NCBI GenBank assembly: GCA_903945175.1
Contig: CAJAUM010000110.1
Span: 101,626-165,625 of the forward strand
Length of the DNA stretch: 64,000 nucleotides
Reading direction: 5' to 3'
Source: an uncultured Bacteroidales bacterium
GTDB taxonomy: Bacteria > Bacteroidota > Bacteroidia > Bacteroidales > FEN-979
A program made the translations under genes and the position numbers. The notes beneath the pieces are model-generated. The model was not told where the DNA came from, ran no database searches, and saw only the letters and a program-made list of their open reading frames with translations. Of this stretch, positions 49,253 through 64,000 are shown piece after piece (position 1 is the first letter of the stretch; every line of letters starts with the position of its first letter).

Positions 49253-51160
49253 CTATCTCCACCTGAGTCTCCTCTCCTTATCCAAGGTGATTTTTTCGTT
49301 ATCGAGCAGCCATTGAACAGCGCGGATGATCTTGTCTTCATTGATGGGATCCGCAGCAACGACAAGATCTTCCATGGAACAGGGTTTGGTTTTAAGCACC
49401 GGTTTGATCATCTCAAGAATGCTGTTGAATTCCATTTCGTTGAGGCTGATTTTGTTTCGATTGATGCATACGTCACATTTTCCGCATCGTTTGGTATTGC
49501 ATTCACCAAAGTAGGCGAGCAGGGTCTGGCTGCGGCATTTGTTGTTTGTTTCAGCGTACCCGATCATCTTTTCCAGCCGCTTTTCACCATCCTTCAGCCG
49601 GTCGCGGTAATTTTCGGGGGAGATGGAGAGATCGTTCGTATCCAGCCTTGCCTGCATGAATATGATTTGCGGTTTATCGGTTTGGGGAATATAATCGAGT
49701 ATCTGCAATTTGGCCAGGTGCTGCAGGCTAGAGATCACCTTGTCGATACTGAGGTTGCTTCTGCGTGCCAGTTCCGGTTCGCTGAAAATGGTAAAATCGG
49801 AGAGGATTCCGCTGTATGACCGCAACATGGTTTTGATGAGGTGGTCGAAGGGCTCATGTTCCACCTGGAAGCGATAGAGTTCCTCCTTGCCGGCCTTGAT
49901 GAATACTTTTGAAGGATGATGAATCCCATCGGTGAGCATGACAAAGCCCTCTTTTTCGAGAAATTTGAGGCAGTTGAATACAATGACCGGCTGAAAATTG
50001 AATTGTTCTGCAAAGGCTGACAGATCGAAATCAAATTGCTGGTCTTTCCCCATTCCGACAGGTAGCTGGAAATAATTTCCAAGGGCCTGGTATACATCAC
50101 GAATCATCTGAAGTTCAGGGAATGAGAGCGAAAGATTATGCCGTGAATTAAGAATATCGGCCGTTTCGTAAAGCAGCACCGCATAAGATCGCTTTTCATC
50201 ACGGCCTCCGCGTCCCGCCTCCTGGAAATAGGCTTCGATGCTGTCGGGGAGATCAAGATGCACGACGATCCTGACATTCGACTTGTCGATGCCCATTCCG
50301 AATGCATTGGTTGAGACGATGATCCGGTTTTCTTCATTGATCCATGCCGACTGCCGCTGGTCTCTTATTTTGCTATCGAGACCTGCGTGGTAGAAGTCGG
50401 CGCTGATCTTGTTTTTCTGCAGAAACTCCGCGATTTCTTTGGTGTGACGGCGGTTGCGCACATACACAATCCCGGGACCTTTTACTTTGCTGACGATCTT
50501 TACAAGTCGTTTCAGTTTATCCTCCTCCTTTAACACCAGGTAGGTCAGGTTTTTTCGCTCAAAACTTTTCTGAAAAACATGCTCCTCTTTAAACTCCAGT
50601 CTCTTTTGGATATCCTTTACCACTTTGGATGTGGCTGTAGCCGTGAGCGCCAAAACCGGGGTCCCGGGGATGATGGACCGGATACCGGCGATCTGGAGGT
50701 AGGGTGGCCTGAAATCATAGCCCCACTGGGAAACACAATGGGCTTCATCAACGGCCAGCAGGTTGACCTTCATCCGTTTCAGCGATTCACGCATCTTCTC
50801 CGTAGTGAGCCGCTCGGGGGAAACATAGAGCAGCTTGATATTTCCGAACCGGCAATTTCCAAGGATGATATCAATCTCATCGGCATGCATGCCCGAATGA
50901 ATCGCAGCTGCAGGAATACCGCGCTTTTTCAGATTGTCCACCTGGTCCTTCATCAGTGCAATCAGCGGGGAGATGACCAGGCAGATGCCATCACGGGCCA
51001 GCGCCGGGACCTGAAAGCAGAGCGATTTCCCGCCTCCGGTAGGCAAAAGGGCAAGGGTGTCTTTCCCCTCAAGCACCGATTGGATGATCTCTTCCTGTAG
51101 CGGGCGGAAGGAGGAGTAGCCCCAGTGTTTTAATAGTATTTGATGCGGAGATAGGACCAT
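49253..51160 (-). CDS. recQ: ATP-dependent DNA helicase RecQ
   Basis: LLPTGGGKSLCFQVPAL, LAVDEAHCVSQWGYDFRPPY, NAFGMGIDKSNVRIVVH, QEAGRGGRDEKRSYAVLLY, CGKCDVC. Confidence 0.95.
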   Translation of the reverse strand: MVLSPHQILLKHWGYSSFRPLQEEIIQSVLEGKDTLALLPTGGGKSLCFQVPALARDGICLVISPLIALMKDQVDNLKKRGIPAAAIHSGMHADEIDIILGNCRFGNIKLLYVSPERLTTEKMRESLKRMKVNLLAVDEAHCVSQWGYDFRPPYLQIAGIRSIIPGTPVLALTATATSKVVKDIQKRLEFKEEHVFQKSFERKNLTYLVLKEEDKLKRLVKIVSKVKGPGIVYVRNRRHTKEIAEFLQKNKISADFYHAGLDSKIRDQRQSAWINEENRIIVSTNAFGMGIDKSNVRIVVHLDLPDSIEAYFQEAGRGGRDEKRSYAVLLYETADILNSRHNLSLSFPELQMIRDVYQALGNYFQLPVGMGKDQQFDFDLSAFAEQFNFQPVIVFNCLKFLEKEGFVMLTDGIHHPSKVFIKAGKEELYRFQVEHEPFDHLIKTMLRSYSGILSDFTIFSEPELARRSNLSIDKVISSLQHLAKLQILDYIPQTDKPQIIFMQARLDTNDLSISPENYRDRLKDGEKRLEKMIGYAETNNKCRSQTLLAYFGECNTKRCGKCDVCINRNKISLNEMEFNSILEMIKPVLKTKPCSMEDLVVAADPINEDKIIRAVQWLLDNEKITLDKERRLRWR

Positions 51161-51166
51161 TTAGGA

Positions 51167-51222
51167 ATTACCAATTACCAATTACCAATGACCAATGACC
51201 AATGACCAATGAAAAATTACCA
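51167..51222. repeat. Heptamer array, locus 5: (ATTACCA)x3 (ATGACCA)x3 ATGAAAA ATTACCA
   Basis: Eight consecutive heptamers between recQ and the divergent four-helix-bundle gene. Confidence 0.95.
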
Positions 51223-51287: not shown

Positions 51288-51698
51288 ATGGCAAATAAAA
51301 GTTTAAATCAAAGAACAAAACAATTTGCATTGAGAATCATCAGGATGGTTGATAATTTTCCTGTGACCAGATCATCAAAAATAATAGGGGACCAGATACT
51401 TCGGTCAGCTACATCGTTAGCTGCCAATTATAGGGCGAGTTGCCTGGCAAAATCAAAGAGAGACTTCATCAACAAGCTAAAAACTGTAGAGGAGGAAACC
51501 GATGAAACTATTTTCTGGCTGGAGCTAATTGAAGAATCCAAAATTTTTGCAACAGCTAAAATCCTTCCGGTTAAAACAGAAGCTCATGAAATCCTGAAAA
51601 TTATTATTGCCAGTATCAAAACAACCCGAAAAAACCAAATCGATTACCAGTCAAAAACCAAGACCAATAAAGAACAGCAAATTGGACCAAGTAATTAG
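51288..51698 (+). CDS. Four-helix-bundle protein (S23 / 23S rRNA intervening-sequence / Avd-like family)
   Basis: MANKSLNQRTKQFALRIIRMVDNFPVTRSSKIIGDQILRSATSLAANYRASCLAKSKRDFINKLKTVEEETDETIFWLELI. Confidence 0.92.
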   Translation: MANKSLNQRTKQFALRIIRMVDNFPVTRSSKIIGDQILRSATSLAANYRASCLAKSKRDFINKLKTVEEETDETIFWLELIEESKIFATAKILPVKTEAHEILKIIIASIKTTRKNQIDYQSKTKTNKEQQIGPSN

Positions 51699-51740
51699 TA
51701 AATAGTCATTGGTAATTGGTCATTGGTCACCTGTCACTTG
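51692..51740. repeat. Heptamer array, locus 6 (inverted): TAATTAG TAAATAG TCATTGG TAATTGG TCATTGG TCACCTG TCACTTG
   Basis: Seven heptamers in the opposite orientation to locus 5; supplies the four-helix stop codon and the citF 3' end. Confidence 0.92.
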
Positions 51741-53294
51741 TACTTTCCAAATAGCGTCCAGCACCGTTCCATCCACCCACTTCACGACGGCCACGACCTC
51801 ATCGGTAAATTTGGGTTTGGCTGGCACACCGCAGATTTTCTCGGCTTCGGCTTTCAACTCGTGGATGGTTTTAATCGGAAGGGATGAGTTCTTCATCTTT
51901 TCGATCAGGTCGGTGCGGAGTGGGTTGATGGCAATGCCGCGCTCGGTTACGATTACGTCGATCAGTTCGCCGGGTCCGCAGATGGTGGTCACTTCGTCGC
52001 GAATCACCGGCATCCGGTCGCGGAAGAGGGGAACGGGCAGGATGACGCATTTCCCGAAGAGGGTGTTTTGCCACCCCCCGATTCCGTGCAGCAGGTAGCC
52101 ATCGGAATGGGTTACCACGTTGGCATTGAAATTTACATCCACTTCGGTGGCGCCCAGAATTACGATATCCACCATGGATGAGAAATTCCCTTTGCCATGG
52201 TAGTTGTAGCTTGTAAATGGGCTTGTATGTGTGTGATGCGGGTTTTCGCGCATGGAGCGCACACCGTCAAGGTCGAAGGTTTGCCCGTCGAGGATGTATT
52301 CAACAAGACCCTCTTCGAGCATCTTCACCAGGTATTTGTTGCTCCCACCACGGGCGAAACGGGCTTTCCATTTACGTTCCCGCAGAATTTCCGAGAAATA
52401 GATTCCGATAGAAAGGGCCGTTCCGCCGGCTCCGGCCTGGAAAGAGAAGCCATCGTAGATCAATCCTGCTTCATCACAGAATTTCGCAGACCATTCGGCT
52501 AACAACAGCCGGTCCGGACTTTTGGTGATTTCAGTTGTTCCGCTGACGATCTTCTCGGGAATCCCGATTTTATCCAGCACAACCACATAATCCACATAAT
52601 TTCCATTGATCTGCCATGGCAGACAGGGAAATGGAATGAGATTGTCAGTAACGATGATCACTTTGTCAGCATACTGAGCATCTGCCAGTGCAAAACCAAG
52701 CGGGCCGCATGCGGCAGGACCATTCACCCCATTTGCATCGCCAAAGGGGTCGGCTGTGGGTGCGGCGATCACCGCGATATCAATGTGCACTTCGCCATCC
52801 TGCACGGCCTGGTATCGGCCGCCATGGGAGCGCAAAACGCCAAGGCCTTTCATCTTCCCTTCGGATGTAAACCGTCCGAGGGCGCCATTCATACTGCCTT
52901 CGATATGGTGGATGGTGCCATCTTCGAGGTATTTTGTCATGGGTTCATGGCATGGGAAGGATGCCGAGGGATACCACATCAGATCCCTGATCCCCAGTTC
53001 ATGGGCAATATCAAATATCTGTGTGGCCACCATATCGCCATTGCGGAAATGATGGTGGGTGGAAATGGTGATCCCATCGCGTAATCCGGCCTTCAGCAAT
53101 GCCTCTTTCAGGCTGGGCAAAACTTTATTTCCATCGGCAGGATAATCGATACAGCTGGCAATTTTTGGTGCGGCACGGTAGCCGTCAGGTTTATATTTTC
53201 CAACGCCCATGTAAGGAATGGCAGGTTTTCCATTGATCACCGTGGGCACGATCCGTCCCGCCGCATTTTTTACAAGTTTATCAGATTTGCTCAT
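51720..53294 (-). CDS. citF: Citrate lyase alpha subunit
   Basis: 524 aa; GISTHHHFRNGD-type motif (GITISTHHHFRNGDMVATQIFDIAHELGI), SMNGALGRFTSEGKMKGLGVLRSHGGRYQAVQDGEVHIDIAVIAAPTADPFGDANG. Confidence 0.95.
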   Translation of the reverse strand: MSKSDKLVKNAAGRIVPTVINGKPAIPYMGVGKYKPDGYRAAPKIASCIDYPADGNKVLPSLKEALLKAGLRDGITISTHHHFRNGDMVATQIFDIAHELGIRDLMWYPSASFPCHEPMTKYLEDGTIHHIEGSMNGALGRFTSEGKMKGLGVLRSHGGRYQAVQDGEVHIDIAVIAAPTADPFGDANGVNGPAACGPLGFALADAQYADKVIIVTDNLIPFPCLPWQINGNYVDYVVVLDKIGIPEKIVSGTTEITKSPDRLLLAEWSAKFCDEAGLIYDGFSFQAGAGGTALSIGIYFSEILRERKWKARFARGGSNKYLVKMLEEGLVEYILDGQTFDLDGVRSMRENPHHTHTSPFTSYNYHGKGNFSSMVDIVILGATEVDVNFNANVVTHSDGYLLHGIGGWQNTLFGKCVILPVPLFRDRMPVIRDEVTTICGPGELIDVIVTERGIAINPLRTDLIEKMKNSSLPIKTIHELKAEAEKICGVPAKPKFTDEVVAVVKWVDGTVLDAIWKVQVTGDQ

Positions 53295-54519
53295 ACGATT
53301 CCCTCCAGTTTTCAGCGAGTTTGTTCATTTTTAGTGCAAGCGTAATGGTGTTTAACGCCCTTTTTACCACTGGCGGATCGATCATCTTGGTGCCAAGGGC
53401 AACCACGCCAAGTCCCAATTCGTGTGCTTTATGGAACGCAAAAACGATTTTTTTGGCTTTTTCGATTTCCTCGGATGTGGGAGCAAAGGTTTCATGGATC
53501 ACCACGATCTGGCGGGGATGGATGCAGCCCATGCCATCGAAGCCGAGCGCTTTCGACCGGATCACATTCTGACGCAGCCCCTCCATGTCGCCCACGTCGG
53601 AGAACACCGAGTCGATGGGCTGAATTCCCGCGGCGCGTGCGGCATTGACGACCATGCTGCGGGCAAAGAAGGATTCGGTGCCTTCGGCCGTGCGCCTTGT
53701 TCCTAAATCGGCCGTGTAATCTTCAAGTCCGATGGCCAGGGCCACGATGTTCGGGGAAGCGCTGGCGATGGCGTATGCATTGATTACTCCCAGAGCGCTT
53801 TCGATGATGGGCATAATCCAAATGACCAATGACGAATGACCAGTGACCAATGATGATTGACGATTTAGGATTTCCTGGATTTTATCGTTGACGGCGTGGA
53901 TCTGATCGGGGGTTTCGCATTTGGGAAGCAGGATCAGGTTGACGTTGTAAGGGATGATGTATTCGAGATCTTCGAGCCCGCGTTCGCCCTGGTTGATACG
54001 GACCATCCGCTCGGCGCCATAGAAATCGATGCCGCAGAGGGCATTGCGAACCAGAAACCTCGCTTCATCCTTTTTTTCGGGGGCTACGGCATCCTCCAGA
54101 TCCAGGATGATGCCATCGGGTTTGTGGATGCCGGCATTGATCATCAGGCTGGGAGAATTTCCCGGAAGATAAAGCCGTGAAAAGCGGTTCCGGTCTTTGG
54201 CCGTGACATAATGATTTTCGTTAAGCATGTCCGGATGCCGGTTTTTATCGGTGGTGATAAGCTTTTTAATGGCGGCTTCCAATCGTGCAGCTATGACCAG
54301 CGAAATGGCACCTGAATCCTCAATCTTCAGGCTTGCATGTTTAATTCCGAAGAAATCCAGGATGTCAAGCGCCTCTTTCCGGATTTCATCGCCATACATC
54401 ACGGCTACTTTGGATTCGACCTGAAGCTGAATTCCTCCCTGGTCAGTAAGTTCGAGGGTCACAAAGCAGTCGGAGCGGACCCCTTTACCTTTGTTACCTG
54501 TTGTTGCAATTGATCCCAT
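53281..54519 (-). CDS. Fused citrate lyase acyl-carrier (CitD) plus beta subunit (CitE)
   Basis: N-terminal GVRSDCFVTLELTDQGGIQLQVESKVAVMYGDEIRKEALDILDFFGI (CitD-like) then RLYLPGNSPSLMINAGIHKPDGIILDLEDAVAPEKKDEAR (CitE). Confidence 0.9.
   Translation of the reverse strand: MGSIATTGNKGKGVRSDCFVTLELTDQGGIQLQVESKVAVMYGDEIRKEALDILDFFGIKHASLKIEDSGAISLVIAARLEAAIKKLITTDKNRHPDMLNENHYVTAKDRNRFSRLYLPGNSPSLMINAGIHKPDGIILDLEDAVAPEKKDEARFLVRNALCGIDFYGAERMVRINQGERGLEDLEYIIPYNVNLILLPKCETPDQIHAVNDKIQEILNRQSSLVTGHSSLVIWIMPIIESALGVINAYAIASASPNIVALAIGLEDYTADLGTRRTAEGTESFFARSMVVNAARAAGIQPIDSVFSDVGDMEGLRQNVIRSKALGFDGMGCIHPRQIVVIHETFAPTSEEIEKAKKIVFAFHKAHELGLGVVALGTKMIDPPVVKRALNTITLALKMNKLAENWRESYEQI
53822..53870. 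repeat. Heptamer array, locus 7, inside the citE coding sequence
   Basis: ATGACCA ATGACGA ATGACCA GTGACCA ATGATGA TTGACGA TTTAGGA; translated in frame as RQSSLVTGHSSLVIW. Confidence 0.9.
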
Positions 54520-54688
54520 AAATACTGGTGTATCTTGTTAAATTTTAAACAGTCAAAAATATAAAATTTTCATGTATAATCTGCCTGGTTGTCTGCTATG
54601 TTTTATGATTAATCGGATTTTATATGATAATGCATGAAAATTGTTGGATGATTGGATTATTTTTGCAGTAACCTTAATAGGAAAAACC

Positions 54689-56704
54689 ATGCGGAGAAAA
54701 TCAGGAGCCCATTCAAAATCCGGTCTGTCTAAAAGTTCTGGAAAGAGTAGGGGGAAGTCTTCAGGCAAGGGCAGGAAATGGCTCCACGGCAACATCATCC
54801 TGGTTATGTTGTTGAAGTTGTTCCTGGTGCTGGTACTCTTTTTTTTATCGCGCATTCTTTTTTATGCCTTCAACCTCGGATATTTTTCGAATCTGAGCCT
54901 GCCTGAAGCCATGCGCATTTTTATCATCGGGCTCCGCTTCGATCTTTCGGCGCTGCTTATCATCAATGCTCCCTTTATCCTGATGAATTCGATCCCTTTC
55001 AAATTCAGATTCAACAAGGCCTGGCAGGGTTTTGCCAGTGGGTACTTCTATTTTATGAATTCATTAGCGTTAATGACAAATTTCGGAGATTCCATTTATT
55101 TCAGGTTTACACTGAAGCGGTTGACCGGTGATTTTTTCAAATATATGGGGGTGGGAGGTGACTGGGATAAGTTGGTTCCCCAGTTTTTGCATGATTTCTG
55201 GTATATTGCGTTGATCTGGATCCTGTTTGTTGTCATCTTAATCTACATTGGCACGCGCTTTATTATCGCGTCACCAGGCTCAGGAAAGAAAGGGTTCGAC
55301 TTTCAGTTTTACTTTCTGAATACTATTTTATTTTGTTTAATAATGGCACTGTCGGTCGTCGGCATCCGGGGTGGATTGCAGCTTCGTCCCATCGGGTTGG
55401 TTACTGCGGGTAATTATACGTCGGCGAAAAATCTTCCATTGATGTTGAATACCCCATTTTCAATCGCCAAAACGCTCAACAAGGAGAGTCTGAGAACCAT
55501 GACCGTTTATAAGAAAGAGGGTGATCTGGCCAAAGTTTATACACCGGTACATCGTGGTAAAACCGGTGAGTTTAAGCGCTACAATGTAATGATTATCATC
55601 CTGGAGAGTTTTTCACGTGAACATATAGGGGCCTTGAACCATTCCCTCGAAAATGGCCGATACCAAGGCTTTACCCCGTTCATGGATTCATTGCTGAGGC
55701 ATGGTTACTATTTTGATGCATTTGCGAACGGAAAGACCTCAATCCAGGGGATTCCTGCTGTTTTATCAGGAATTCCGTCTCTGATGAATGAATCATTCAT
55801 CCAATCGAGTTATGCTGCCGGAAAATTTTCGAGCATTGCCGGACTCCTGAAACCAAAAGGTTACACCACTGCGTTTTTCCACGGAGGTACGAATGGGACG
55901 ATGGGATTTGATTCCTACAGCAAGCTGGTTGGGTTTGATCATTATTTCGGACGCATCGAATACAATAACGAAAAGGATTATGACGGGAAATGGGGCATCC
56001 GGGACGAGGAGTTCCTTCAGTTTACTGCAAAAAAAATCAATGGGATGAAACAGCCCTTTGCTGTTTCATTTTTTTCACTTTCATCTCATCATCCCTATTA
56101 CGTTCCCGGAAAGTACATCAACATTTTCCGCAAAGGCAAGTTGCCTATCCAGCAAAGTGTCATGTACGCCGATCATGCATTGGGTGAATTTTTTCACACG
56201 GTCAAACACATGCCATGGTATAAAAACACCCTGTTTGTCATCACGGCCGATCACACTTCCGAAGGGTATTATCCGTATTACCAGTCTGATGTAGGACAGT
56301 ATGCCATCCCCCTGCTTTTCTTCAAACCAGGCGACATCCTTGAGGGAAAATCTGAAGTAATTGCCCAACAGACCGATGTAATGCCAACCATACTGAACTA
56401 TCTTGGTTACGATAAAAGCTATGTGGCTTTCGGGGCCGACCTTTTCGACAGCACTTCCAGCCAGGCGCATTTTTCAATTCATTACATTACCGGCTTGTAT
56501 GGCCTGATAAAAGACGGGTATTGCCTTGAATTCAACGGGATAAAAAGCACGGCGCTGTTCAATCTCACCAAGGATCCTTTACAATCAGAGAACTTGGTTG
56601 GCAGGGAAAATGAGGTGCGAGCCAGGATGGAATTGTTCATCAAGGCGTATATTCAGCAGTATAATAACAGGTTGATTGAGAATAGAATGACGAGTGACGA
56701 GTGA
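54689..56704 (+). CDS. LTA synthase family / alkaline-phosphatase superfamily sulfatase membrane protein
   Basis: N-terminal TM helices; VMIIILESFSREHIGALN, TTAFFHGGTNGTMGFDSYSKLVGFDHYFG, FVITADHTSE; start trimmed to MRRKSGAH. Confidence 0.9.
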   Translation: MRRKSGAHSKSGLSKSSGKSRGKSSGKGRKWLHGNIILVMLLKLFLVLVLFFLSRILFYAFNLGYFSNLSLPEAMRIFIIGLRFDLSALLIINAPFILMNSIPFKFRFNKAWQGFASGYFYFMNSLALMTNFGDSIYFRFTLKRLTGDFFKYMGVGGDWDKLVPQFLHDFWYIALIWILFVVILIYIGTRFIIASPGSGKKGFDFQFYFLNTILFCLIMALSVVGIRGGLQLRPIGLVTAGNYTSAKNLPLMLNTPFSIAKTLNKESLRTMTVYKKEGDLAKVYTPVHRGKTGEFKRYNVMIIILESFSREHIGALNHSLENGRYQGFTPFMDSLLRHGYYFDAFANGKTSIQGIPAVLSGIPSLMNESFIQSSYAAGKFSSIAGLLKPKGYTTAFFHGGTNGTMGFDSYSKLVGFDHYFGRIEYNNEKDYDGKWGIRDEEFLQFTAKKINGMKQPFAVSFFSLSSHHPYYVPGKYINIFRKGKLPIQQSVMYADHALGEFFHTVKHMPWYKNTLFVITADHTSEGYYPYYQSDVGQYAIPLLFFKPGDILEGKSEVIAQQTDVMPTILNYLGYDKSYVAFGADLFDSTSSQAHFSIHYITGLYGLIKDGYCLEFNGIKSTALFNLTKDPLQSENLVGRENEVRARMELFIKAYIQQYNNRLIENRMTSDE

Positions 56705-56847
56705 CCAATGACCAATGACCAATGACCAATGACCAATGACCAATGACCAATGAACAATGACCAATGACCAATGACCAATGACCAATGACCAATGCCTAAT
56801 GCCTAATGCCTAATGCCTAATGCCTATTGCCTATTGCCTATTGCCTA
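56687..56847. repeat. Heptamer array, locus 8: 23 contiguous heptamers with consensus switching
   Basis: ATGACGA, GTGACGA, GTGACCA, (ATGACCA)x6, ATGAACA, (ATGACCA)x5, (ATGCCTA)x5, (TTGCCTA)x3 = 161 bp, no register slip. Confidence 0.98.
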
Positions 56848-56877: not shown

Positions 56878-57768
56878 ATGTCTGAGGAAAGTTCAAAGAA
56901 GCATATTCTTTTCATCATTAATCCGATTTCGGGGATCGGGAATCATCATGGCGTTGAGCATCTGATAACGGAACGGCTAGATTCAGCCAGGTTCAATTCC
57001 TCAATTATATACACCAATTCTCAGGGCCATGCTTCTGAGATCAGCAGGGAGGCCGCAGCCGACGGCGTGGAGATCATTGTGGCCGTCGGAGGTGACGGAA
57101 CGGTGAATGAGACGGCGGCAGGTCTTATTGGAACGGAATCGGCCCTGGCCATCATTCCTGCAGGATCGGGAAACGGGCTGGCCCGGCATCTTAAAATCCC
57201 GATGAATAAAAAACGTGCCATTGATGTAATCAACCATGGCAAAGTTCAGAAGATTGATACGGCCACCATCAACGATCAGTTGTTTGTCAACCTGGCAGGC
57301 GTCGGCTTTGACGCCTCGGTTGCCAAGAAATTTGCATCGGCAGGCAAGCGCGGGTTTTCGACCTATTTCCGAATCACAACCAATTCCTATAAAAATTACG
57401 AACCCAAGCAATACACGCTGGTTATTGACGGGAAGGTGATTAAACGCCGTGCACTGCTTATCAGTTTCGCCAATTCAAACCAGTTTGGCAACAATACTTC
57501 TATTGATCCGACAGCCAGCATTGATGATGGTTTTATTGATGTGTGTATTGTGGGAAAAATGCCATATTGGAAAGCGCTTTTATTGGCTCCTTTGCTCTTC
57601 CTTAAAAAGTTTGACCAGACAAAATATATCGAAATCATCCGGGCCAAAGAGGTGGTTCTGAAAAGAAAGAAGGGGAAAAGCATTCATCTTGACGGGGACC
57701 CAAAGACGATGGGAAAGGAGCTGACCATGCGGATCAATCCATTGTCGCTGAATGTTATTGTACCATGA
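56878..57768 (+). CDS. Diacylglycerol kinase / lipid kinase family protein
   Basis: ILFIINPISGIGNHHGVEHLI, IVAVGGDGTVNETAAGLIGTESALAIIPAGSGNGLARHLKIP; start trimmed to MSEESSKK. Confidence 0.93.
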   Translation: MSEESSKKHILFIINPISGIGNHHGVEHLITERLDSARFNSSIIYTNSQGHASEISREAAADGVEIIVAVGGDGTVNETAAGLIGTESALAIIPAGSGNGLARHLKIPMNKKRAIDVINHGKVQKIDTATINDQLFVNLAGVGFDASVAKKFASAGKRGFSTYFRITTNSYKNYEPKQYTLVIDGKVIKRRALLISFANSNQFGNNTSIDPTASIDDGFIDVCIVGKMPYWKALLLAPLLFLKKFDQTKYIEIIRAKEVVLKRKKGKSIHLDGDPKTMGKELTMRINPLSLNVIVP

Positions 57769-59150: not shown

Positions 59151-59161
59151 CAAAAAAAAAA

Positions 59162-59252
59162 GGCAGTAGGCAATAGGCAGTAGGCAATAGGCAGTAGGCA
59201 ATAGGCAGTAGGCAATAGGCAATAGGCAGTAGGAAATAGGCAATAGGCAGTA
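59162..59252. repeat. Heptamer array, locus 11a: 13 units of GGCAGTA/GGCAATA, largely alternating
   Basis: Direct reading; one GGAAATA variant unit. Confidence 0.97.
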
Positions 59253-59263
59253 GGTATTGCTAA

Positions 59264-59305
59264 TTCGTCATTCGTCATTCGTCATTCGTCATTCGTAAAT
59301 CGTAT
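59264..59305. repeat. Heptamer array, locus 11b: (TTCGTCA)x4 TTCGTAA ATCGTAT
   Basis: Direct reading; reverse-complement phase of ATGACGA, adjacent to 11a. Confidence 0.93.
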
Positions 59306-59328
59306 ATCATAAATCTAAACTCCCTCAT

Positions 59329-61048: not shown

Positions 61049-61252
61049 TTATTGATCCAGTTTTTGAATTTTTCCATATTCCAGGTTTCTGGCAATCTGA
61101 AGGATCTCATCCAGCCTGTGATAAAGGTTACAGCGGGTCAGCGCCGTTTTTGGGTTATTTATCCTGAAATAGGCGATCAAGGTAAAGTCCTTGTCCCTGA
61201 TCTGAATATAATCCGGGATTTTTCCGGTGCCCTGGATCTTTAGGATATACAT
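61049..61252 (-). CDS. Small conserved Bacteroidota protein of unknown function
   Basis: 67 aa MYILKIQGTGKIPDYIQIRDKDFTLIAYFRINNPKTALTRCNLYHRLDEILQIARNLEYGKIQKLDQ; lies upstream of ftsE on the same strand. Confidence 0.7.
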   Translation of the reverse strand: MYILKIQGTGKIPDYIQIRDKDFTLIAYFRINNPKTALTRCNLYHRLDEILQIARNLEYGKIQKLDQ

Positions 61253-61315
61253 GGGATTAGGGATTAGGGATTAGGGATTAGGGATTAGCCATTAGCCATT
61301 AGACATTAGCCATTA
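61253..61315. repeat. Heptamer array, locus 12: (GGGATTA)x5 (GCCATTA)x2 GACATTA GCCATTA
   Basis: Nine consecutive heptamers; starts immediately next to the small gene's start codon and ends on the next gene's stop codon. Confidence 0.97.
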
Positions 61316-63157
61316 GGGGTTTATTTTTTCAGGAAGGAGGGCTCCTTCAATTTTTCGATACTCAGCTTCATCCTTCAACGAGATAAAATCAATAATAAGA
61401 TCGTCGATGTAGAGTTTGTACAACGGCGATGGATTGTAAAAATAGACCTTGGCTGCACCATCCGGGGGAAGGTTTCGGGGAACATACCAGGCAACTTCGA
61501 TTTTAGTCCATTTATCTTCCGGGACAAATTTTTCAAGGATAAACTGATTGTAGCTCAGGCTTTTTCCTTTTGATTGGTAATCAACAACCAGCGTGGCTTC
61601 AGTAGTCTCTTTGGGGGCAAGGACCCATGCCGAGACCTGGATTATACGGTTGCCCGTTGTGAAGAGGGTGTCGAGCCTGGTTTCCAATCCGACGCTGTAA
61701 GGAATTTTTTTATCTGACTTTGATGACCAGTGTCCCTGGTAAGAAATCGTATCGTTGCGGGTTCCCTGGTTCATCCAAGGACTGCCCTGTAAGCGCTCCA
61801 TATCATTCAACATCGATTTTTTCCCGGCGATGCTTTCAGCAGGAATATAAACCCTTGCTTTTTGCGAAAGGCTGAAAAACGAATCCCAATACATGCCGGC
61901 AGTGATGTTGTAGGGAGGGAAAATCCATTTGGCATGCTGATAAAATTGCAGCAGGTTAAGCGAAATCAGCAGGACTAAAATGGCGGAAAGGATCCTTTTC
62001 AAGACAACAGCCCGAAGAGAATGATAAAAACTGAAAAGCAGGAGCGCCACGGTGACATAAATATCGATAAACACCCGTTGTCCGCATTTTGACGCGTAAT
62101 ACCATACCCACCAGCAAGAGGCAATGTAGGCAAATGACAGCATAAAGCCCATCAGCCAGAAATACCGGAAGCGGTTTTGTTTGAAAATCGGCGTAAAGCC
62201 AAAAAGGGCGATAAAGGCAACCGGTGTATAAAGAAACAATCCACGGTTATAACTGAACAGAATATTCGCCAGGTTGGAGTGAAGGAGATTCAGTTTTTCA
62301 TCTCCGTATGTATAAACGATCAATTTCCCGGTTTGCAGATACCAGAGCGCCACAGGAATGGCAAGTAAAATCAACATTTGGATGATCCCCCTGATAAGGG
62401 CTTTCTTTTCGGACAAAACCTTTCTGAAGGTTTGGGACATGATGTCTGTATCTCCCGCGATAAAGGGCACCAGGAGCAGGATCATCGCATTGGTGGGTCG
62501 GATCAGTAAAATGAGGGTGAACAGCGTCAGAGACCTGACAAACCATTTGGGCTGGTAATCATGAAAAAGCTTATAGGTAGTCAATGCAAATCCTGTGATC
62601 AGCGCAAACGAGTAAACGTGGGTCATTGATGGCTCAACAACCGTGAAGAAGACCAGGTTGGTGCCCAGGGTTACGACGACCGTTATGAAGGCAGCAGTAC
62701 GTTCATCGGATCCAAAAAGCTTCAAGAGTTTCATCAGCCACCGTGCACCCAGCCAAAGAAACAGCAAGGCCGATAAAGCGATTGAATACTGGTAGGGGAG
62801 GGAGTATCCGTCCATCGGAATGACCTCCAGCCAAGCCATGAGATGCCCGAAGAGGAAGAAGGGAAGCCATAAGATGGCCATGCCGGGAAAGTATTTATTT
62901 ACCTTTTGTGTTCCGGCATCATTTCTGAATTCCTTGAACACGGAACGGTTTGCAGGATAGTATTGCGCCTCATACTGTTCTACGAATTTGAATTGCAGGT
63001 CGTGGTAAATAAAAATAGCGGGCAGGTAGGCATAGTAACCCTTTCCATCGCTGTTGATCACCCGGTCCCAGTTTTTCTCAGGGTTTTTGAATCCAATGAA
63101 GATCAGTACATAGACGAACAGGATGATCTCCGGTGTGTGTTTGTAAATGTGCTTCAT
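61313..63157 (-). CDS. Polytopic membrane protein, possible glycosyltransferase-39-like
   Basis: 614 aa, many TM; YFPGMAILWLPFFLFGHLMAWL...VVTLGTNLVFFTVVEPSMTHVYSFALI. Confidence 0.65.
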   Translation of the reverse strand: MKHIYKHTPEIILFVYVLIFIGFKNPEKNWDRVINSDGKGYYAYLPAIFIYHDLQFKFVEQYEAQYYPANRSVFKEFRNDAGTQKVNKYFPGMAILWLPFFLFGHLMAWLEVIPMDGYSLPYQYSIALSALLFLWLGARWLMKLLKLFGSDERTAAFITVVVTLGTNLVFFTVVEPSMTHVYSFALITGFALTTYKLFHDYQPKWFVRSLTLFTLILLIRPTNAMILLLVPFIAGDTDIMSQTFRKVLSEKKALIRGIIQMLILLAIPVALWYLQTGKLIVYTYGDEKLNLLHSNLANILFSYNRGLFLYTPVAFIALFGFTPIFKQNRFRYFWLMGFMLSFAYIASCWWVWYYASKCGQRVFIDIYVTVALLLFSFYHSLRAVVLKRILSAILVLLISLNLLQFYQHAKWIFPPYNITAGMYWDSFFSLSQKARVYIPAESIAGKKSMLNDMERLQGSPWMNQGTRNDTISYQGHWSSKSDKKIPYSVGLETRLDTLFTTGNRIIQVSAWVLAPKETTEATLVVDYQSKGKSLSYNQFILEKFVPEDKWTKIEVAWYVPRNLPPDGAAKVYFYNPSPLYKLYIDDLIIDFISLKDEAEYRKIEGALLPEKINP

Positions 63158-63906: not shown

Positions 63907-64000
63907 GGGATTAGGGGTTAGGGGTTAGGCAATAGGCAATAGGCAATAGGCAATAGGCAATAGGCAATAGGCAATAGGCAATAGGCAATAGGCAATAGGC
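63907..64000. repeat. Heptamer array, locus 13: GGGATTA (GGGGTTA)x2 (GGCAATA)x10 or more, running off the window
   Basis: Direct reading; array is unterminated at 64000. Confidence 0.97.

Follow-up and report, generated by a model that had tools for sequence, protein, structure and literature searches.

The heptamer array at 56687–56847 (plus strand) of the window, by which we mean the whole 64-kb stretch of DNA that was analyzed, is on balance best explained as one of the many 7-bp tandem arrays in this genome that share their units with the inverted arms around genes for the 23S rRNA intervening-sequence protein (IVP), and as a composite, solo representative of that family. Each of its two main blocks repeats the unit found in the arms of a different IVP copy of the same genome (G000): ATGACCA in the element within the window and YTGCCTA in one on contig C115. 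As a kind of sequence the array is known, namely heptameric repeats. We propose more tentatively that IVP (PF05635, S23p/four-helix-bundle) proteins may partner heptamer arrays in several phyla, that each subfamily may recognize its own 7–9 bp unit, that the gene may travel inside a hairpin with inverted-array arms, and that solo arrays such as 56687–56847 may be made or acted on by the same activity, in some cases joining units from two subfamilies.

Composition and block structure of the array

Read unit by unit, the 161 bp split into exactly 23 heptamers that keep one register, as the original prediction stated: ATGACGA, GTGACGA, GTGACCA, six ATGACCA, ATGAACA, five ATGACCA, five ATGCCTA and three TTGCCTA. 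TRF called the same array. All blocks lie on the plus strand. Units 1–3 (56687–56707) encode the tail M-T-S-D-E and the stop TGA of the upstream gene. The ATGACCA block (56708–56791) holds 11 copies and the single ATGAACA variant at 56750–56756, and the window's IVP gene has this unit in its arms. It is followed by five copies of the chimeric junction unit ATG|CCTA (56792–56826) and by three TTGCCTA units (56827–56847), the arm unit of an IVP element at C115:56641 (L207).

The blockwise change claimed for the array is real, with 7 neighbor changes against 16.1 expected after unit shuffling (P = 0.0005), which places it among the blockiest of 52 arrays; the first block, however, is upstream coding sequence and does not represent array growth. 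Block order is general but weak across the 52 arrays, a mean tendency of 257 neighbor changes versus 303 ± 8 in shuffled arrays, and 18 of the 49 mixed arrays alternate more than their shuffled counterparts, as higher-order repeats of 14 or 21 bp. A CRISPR array was ruled out, as the 7-bp tandem is uninterrupted and has no unique spacers.

Heptamer arrays across the genome

The two-unit pattern ATKACSAATKACSA matched 443 times in the 4.41-Mb genome, a draft of 155 contigs from a lake-type Bacteroidales, and once for the reversed control, while the TTGCCTA pattern WTTGCCTAWTGCCTA gave 174 matches versus 1. Because these counts far exceed the reversed controls, the array is not a product of chance. 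About 12 heptamer arrays lie within the window. They include, on the minus strand, a second composite array of matching block order (59158–59315; TTTACGA, ATGACGA, YTGCCTA), an ATCCCTA/ATGGCTA array (61249–61316) and an array of TTGCCTA, ACCCCTA and ATCCCTA that reaches the contig end (63905–64000). With simple ORF calls on draft genomes, and array orientation assigned by motif, 38 arrays were intergenic, 14 lay in called ORFs and 7 at contig edges. One array (53819–53873) is in frame within a citrate-lyase/aldolase-like ORF (53281–54519, minus strand) and encodes SSLVTGHSSLVI. Contigs end inside heptamer arrays at G000:C110:1–167, at C43:1–161 and at window positions 63926–64000, and arrays are under-counted because the assembly breaks at them. 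Short GTGACGC arrays spaced by about 35 bp were also seen (L140, G000:C9:3936–4036); in relatives, GTGACGC is the arm unit of an IVP subfamily. Both ATGACCA and TTGCCTA arrays occur on IMG/VR contigs that differ widely in GC; as these contigs may derive from hosts or from viruses, they were left out of the analysis.

Species explains the array unit better than junction does

Gene order in the window is conserved across the family, and we compared it with uncultured Bacteroidales MAGs, several of them from lakes. Arrays recur at eight window junctions, with constant orientation at three of these (7/7, 7/7 and 7/7 array-bearing species), and vary among relatives in length and unit. The original prediction could have been undermined by random single-unit substitutions in the orthologous arrays; instead, relatives carry different, species-wide units, such as TTTACGA in G001, G012 and G018, GTGACAA in G003 and G014, and ATGACCA in G000. 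The mean Hamming distance between units at orthologous junctions was 1.20 within species versus 2.20 within junction (P = 0.0005). The effect of species on the unit was accordingly clear (P = 0.0005) and that of junction weak (P = 0.09). The dispersed arrays thus evolve in concert, and this concerted evolution is the strongest support for exchange between arrays. The orthologous junctions offer a clean system for studying how short repeats scattered over a bacterial genome evolve in concert.

Slippage, exchange and the chimeric junction unit

It had been assumed that slippage would leave one consensus with scattered errors. This premise failed: in simulations with slippage of one unit per event plus point mutation, equal blocks arose in 3–23% of runs, the fraction varying with the mutation rate. 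Blocks therefore do not exclude slippage, and the presence of 14- and 21-bp higher-order repeats suggests that two or three units slipped at a time. Both mechanisms suggested for the blocks nonetheless have support in other data. Change followed by amplification is supported by the chimeric ATGCCTA, which arises at a junction and then reaches five copies. Template exchange is supported by the units at orthologous junctions, which track species and not junction, and by the small repertoire of only 11 amplified unit types among the arrays sampled. The transition from ATGACCA to TTGCCTA passes through ATG|CCTA with the crossover at the shared TG; this junction was found at four loci, and the equivalent GTG|CCTA at one more.

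These data bear on a neutral microsatellite, in which point mutations spread locally by slippage, units shared between loci reflect common descent, and IVP genes are bystanders. We regard this explanation as rather unlikely, although single-unit slippage matches such blocks in the upper range of the simulations, unit identity is elevated only across the nearest 3 units, the higher-order repeats are present, and it is the account of heptamer arrays given, citing earlier work, in the portion of PMC4692102 consulted. Against it, merely 2 of the 21 one-base neighbors of ATGACCA are amplified, though many kinds of single mutant unit are present; the identical chimeric junction recurs at several loci; species, not site, sets the unit; and it does not account for arms that flank IVP genes in inverted orientation and match each other. 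Under the reading as a composite family member, arrays would expand by slippage of 1–3 units, and exchange, for which we infer template switching, would hold their sequences close to those of other arrays.

Anchoring of arrays at stop codons

The upstream gene (54641–56704, plus strand) encodes a sulfatase-fold, LTA-synthase-like protein (PF00884, E = 1.1e-37); it is called from a TTG, and its true start is probably later. The downstream gene (56878–57768, plus strand, ATG at 56878) belongs to the diacylglycerol kinase family (PF00781, E = 2.2e-30), and its listed TTG start (56827) falls within the array. The sulfatase stop TGA (56702–56704) lies inside array units, and the C-terminus M-T-S-D-E-stop matches the conserved orthologue end ENR[LM]..D. 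From this stop to the ATG at 56878 the spacer is 173 bp, compared with mostly a few bases in the family's other genera. In 7 of 9 species of the genus the array is in register with the sulfatase coding tail (scored by eye; chance 3e-5 if independent), and 25 of 29 sense arrays begin −18 to +10 bp from the stop of the upstream gene.

At eight loci a TGA-bearing block precedes a TGA-free block; six of these begin at or beside a stop codon, and the other two are antisense. The reverse order occurred once only, as a single trailing unit at one of the same eight loci. Because 7 and 3 share no common factor, a run of TGA-bearing units puts a stop in all three frames. Such units can therefore take over the role of a stop codon, unlike TTGCCTA units. 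The TGA-first order would then result from stop-codon retention, which accounts for six of the eight loci, with TGA-bearing units staying gene-proximal because period 7 gives a stop in all frames. Array DNA may have grown from, or been recruited to, a stop-codon seed through in-register template switching.

The leading position of TGA-bearing units, together with the stepwise change between successive units and the two reverse transcriptases in G000, would also suit polar or templated end growth, with units added distally by a reverse transcriptase, telomerase-like or otherwise. We consider such growth very improbable: it is at odds with the 14- and 21-bp higher-order repeats and with arrays of opposite GACC/GACG order, stop retention explains the order where composites begin at a stop codon, and one of the two reverse transcriptases adjoins a DGR-like target. 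Nor is polar growth needed, as the first block is coding and the TGA-first order fits stop-codon retention.

That sense arrays sit on stop codons, and that site and orientation are kept at several junctions, would likewise be expected if the arrays were maintained for a function in cis, as all-frame stop codons, an insulator or a protein-binding site. This is improbable in our view, as many family members have no array at the same junction, the unit sequence varies freely, many arrays are antisense and contain no stop codons, and the solo array at 56687–56847 is not predicted to fold into a hairpin (z +0.71).

Most IVP genes lie between inverted arrays

The window's IVP gene (51288–51698, plus strand; 23S_rRNA_IVP/four-helix bundle, PF05635, E = 7.9e-15), whose nearest solved structure is PDB 2rld (E = 2.3e-16), lies about 5 kb upstream of the array and is flanked by inverted arrays. 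The left arm is an ATTACCA/ATGACCA array on the plus strand (51156–51212), and the right arm is an ATGACCA/ATTACCA array on the minus strand (51690–51729); in the predicted RNA fold the two arms pair. Seven species have the IVP gene and both arms, in the species' own unit. The element is not a 23S rRNA insertion; it sits between two protein-coding genes that mostly abut in outgroups. At the corresponding junction (w43/w45) in G008, a GxxExxY (PF13366) gene with a similar 5′ leader occupies the IVP slot (L150), as if the cargo had been swapped.

The link with IVP emerged while the array was being studied, and the plasmid and GxxExxY sets described below are the nearest to independent tests. Among 96 IVP genes of relatives, those with 7-bp arrays on both flanks comprised 25 inverted, 2 direct and 2 tied pairs. 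Insertion of an IVP gene into a pre-existing array was rejected on this ratio, as it would leave direct halves. By local alignment, which scored 92 of the genes, arms were inverted in 73 and direct in 12 of these Bacteroidales IVP genes, and about one fifth of IVP genes had no detectable arms. The arm period was 7 or 14 in 39 genes, 8 in 24 and 9 in 4. Inverted arms were found at only 10 of 291 ordinary ORFs from the same array-rich stretches, and at 2 of 294 ORFs in outgroups, one of which was itself an IVP gene. None of 29 GxxExxY genes from the same genomes had 7-bp arrays, which ruled them out as array partners. A 40-kb stretch of G026 contains just two 7-bp arrays, and these flank its IVP gene as arms. 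On plasmids of Nostoc, Calothrix, other cyanobacteria, Azospirillum, Riemerella and Gemmatirosa (a mostly cyanobacterial set), 14 of 17 IVP genes had inverted arms, mostly of period 7, versus 8 of 172 random boxes in the same stretches. A search of viral contigs with the window's IVP protein found no relative.

The arms match each other and follow the protein. Mismatch between the two arms of one element was 0.86 of 7 bases versus 3.27 for mismatched pairs from the same genome. Arm period showed strong clustering along the IVP tree (10 changes versus 24 when shuffled; 0 of 200 shuffles), and the distance between arm units grew as IVP protein similarity dropped (0.67, 1.35, 2.56 and 3.26; Mantel-type P = 0.001). 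This correlation held for pairs with unrelated outer flanks, for example the TAAGTTT elements in G003, G013 and G019. Solo units most resembled the arms of IVP genes from the genome in which they occur (P = 0.0002), a match that rests largely on species with the window's element (w44) and fails in G004, G010, G021 and G022. The number of IVP genes correlated with array density (rho 0.63, confounded by kinship).

From these associations we infer that IVP proteins may make or spread arrays. IVP elements would then be the likely reservoir of array units, and the protein perhaps binds its own repeat as an RNA hairpin or as single-stranded DNA. The unit shared by solo arrays and IVP arms could also reflect a single array pool without a donor. 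Few inverted pairs lack an IVP gene, and these are mixed, so decayed IVP elements are unsupported as an origin for the bulk of solo arrays.

Relation to known systems

The arrangement resembles REP/RAYT (the REPtron), in which a gene is bracketed by inverted copies of a genome-dispersed repeat. There the protein is a Y1 transposase and the repeat a single palindrome, whereas the IVP protein is a four-helix bundle and the repeat a tandem array. The Y1 transposase family PF01797 had 0 matches in G000, which ruled out a RAYT as the driver of the arrays.

Heptameric SSRs or STRRs include GGGAATC in Xanthomonas and GGGGA(C/T)T in Nostoc (PMC4692102) and TAACTGA in Beggiatoaceae (PMC4679880). As described in the excerpts consulted of these two papers, they share with the present arrays the period of 7, a mostly intergenic location at very many loci, heterogeneous units, and placement at the same gene junctions in related species, among which length and sequence vary. 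In comparison with these descriptions, the units here are NTKACNA and YTGCCTA, two unit families are fused in register, units are replaced species-wide across several junctions, and there is an associated protein family. For heptamer arrays of cyanobacteria, Xanthomonas, Beggiatoaceae and Bacteroidota, the same excerpts offer only a guess at polymerase slippage (PMC4692102, PMC4679880). The IVP family is the first concrete candidate partner for such arrays known to us. The link between IVP/S23p and heptamers was not found in the open-licence literature searched; an earlier report may exist outside it.

In Coxiella, the 23S rRNA IVS contains an S23p/IVP ORF (PMC4990558). It shares with the elements described here an IVP ORF between complementary ends able to form a stem (predicted here). 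The window element differs in lying between protein-coding genes and not in 23S rRNA, in having many copies per genome, and in its arms, which are tandem arrays of period 7–9 whose unit tracks the IVP subfamily. Homology between PF05635 and Avd of diversity-generating retroelements has been reported (PMC10053308); unlike Avd, the IVP elements examined had no adjacent reverse transcriptase or template/variable repeat, on a non-systematic look. A reverse transcriptase of G000 (L370, G000:C133:43248–43850) adjoins a C-type-lectin-like ORF and apparently forms a diversity-generating retroelement.

The association with arms points to a testable function for S23p/IVP proteins. IVP genes were also observed within CRISPR operons (L353, L357, L359), inserted between cas6 and cas4 in Anabaena sp. 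90 and Pseudanabaena galeata and between cas10 and cmr3 in Picosynechococcus.
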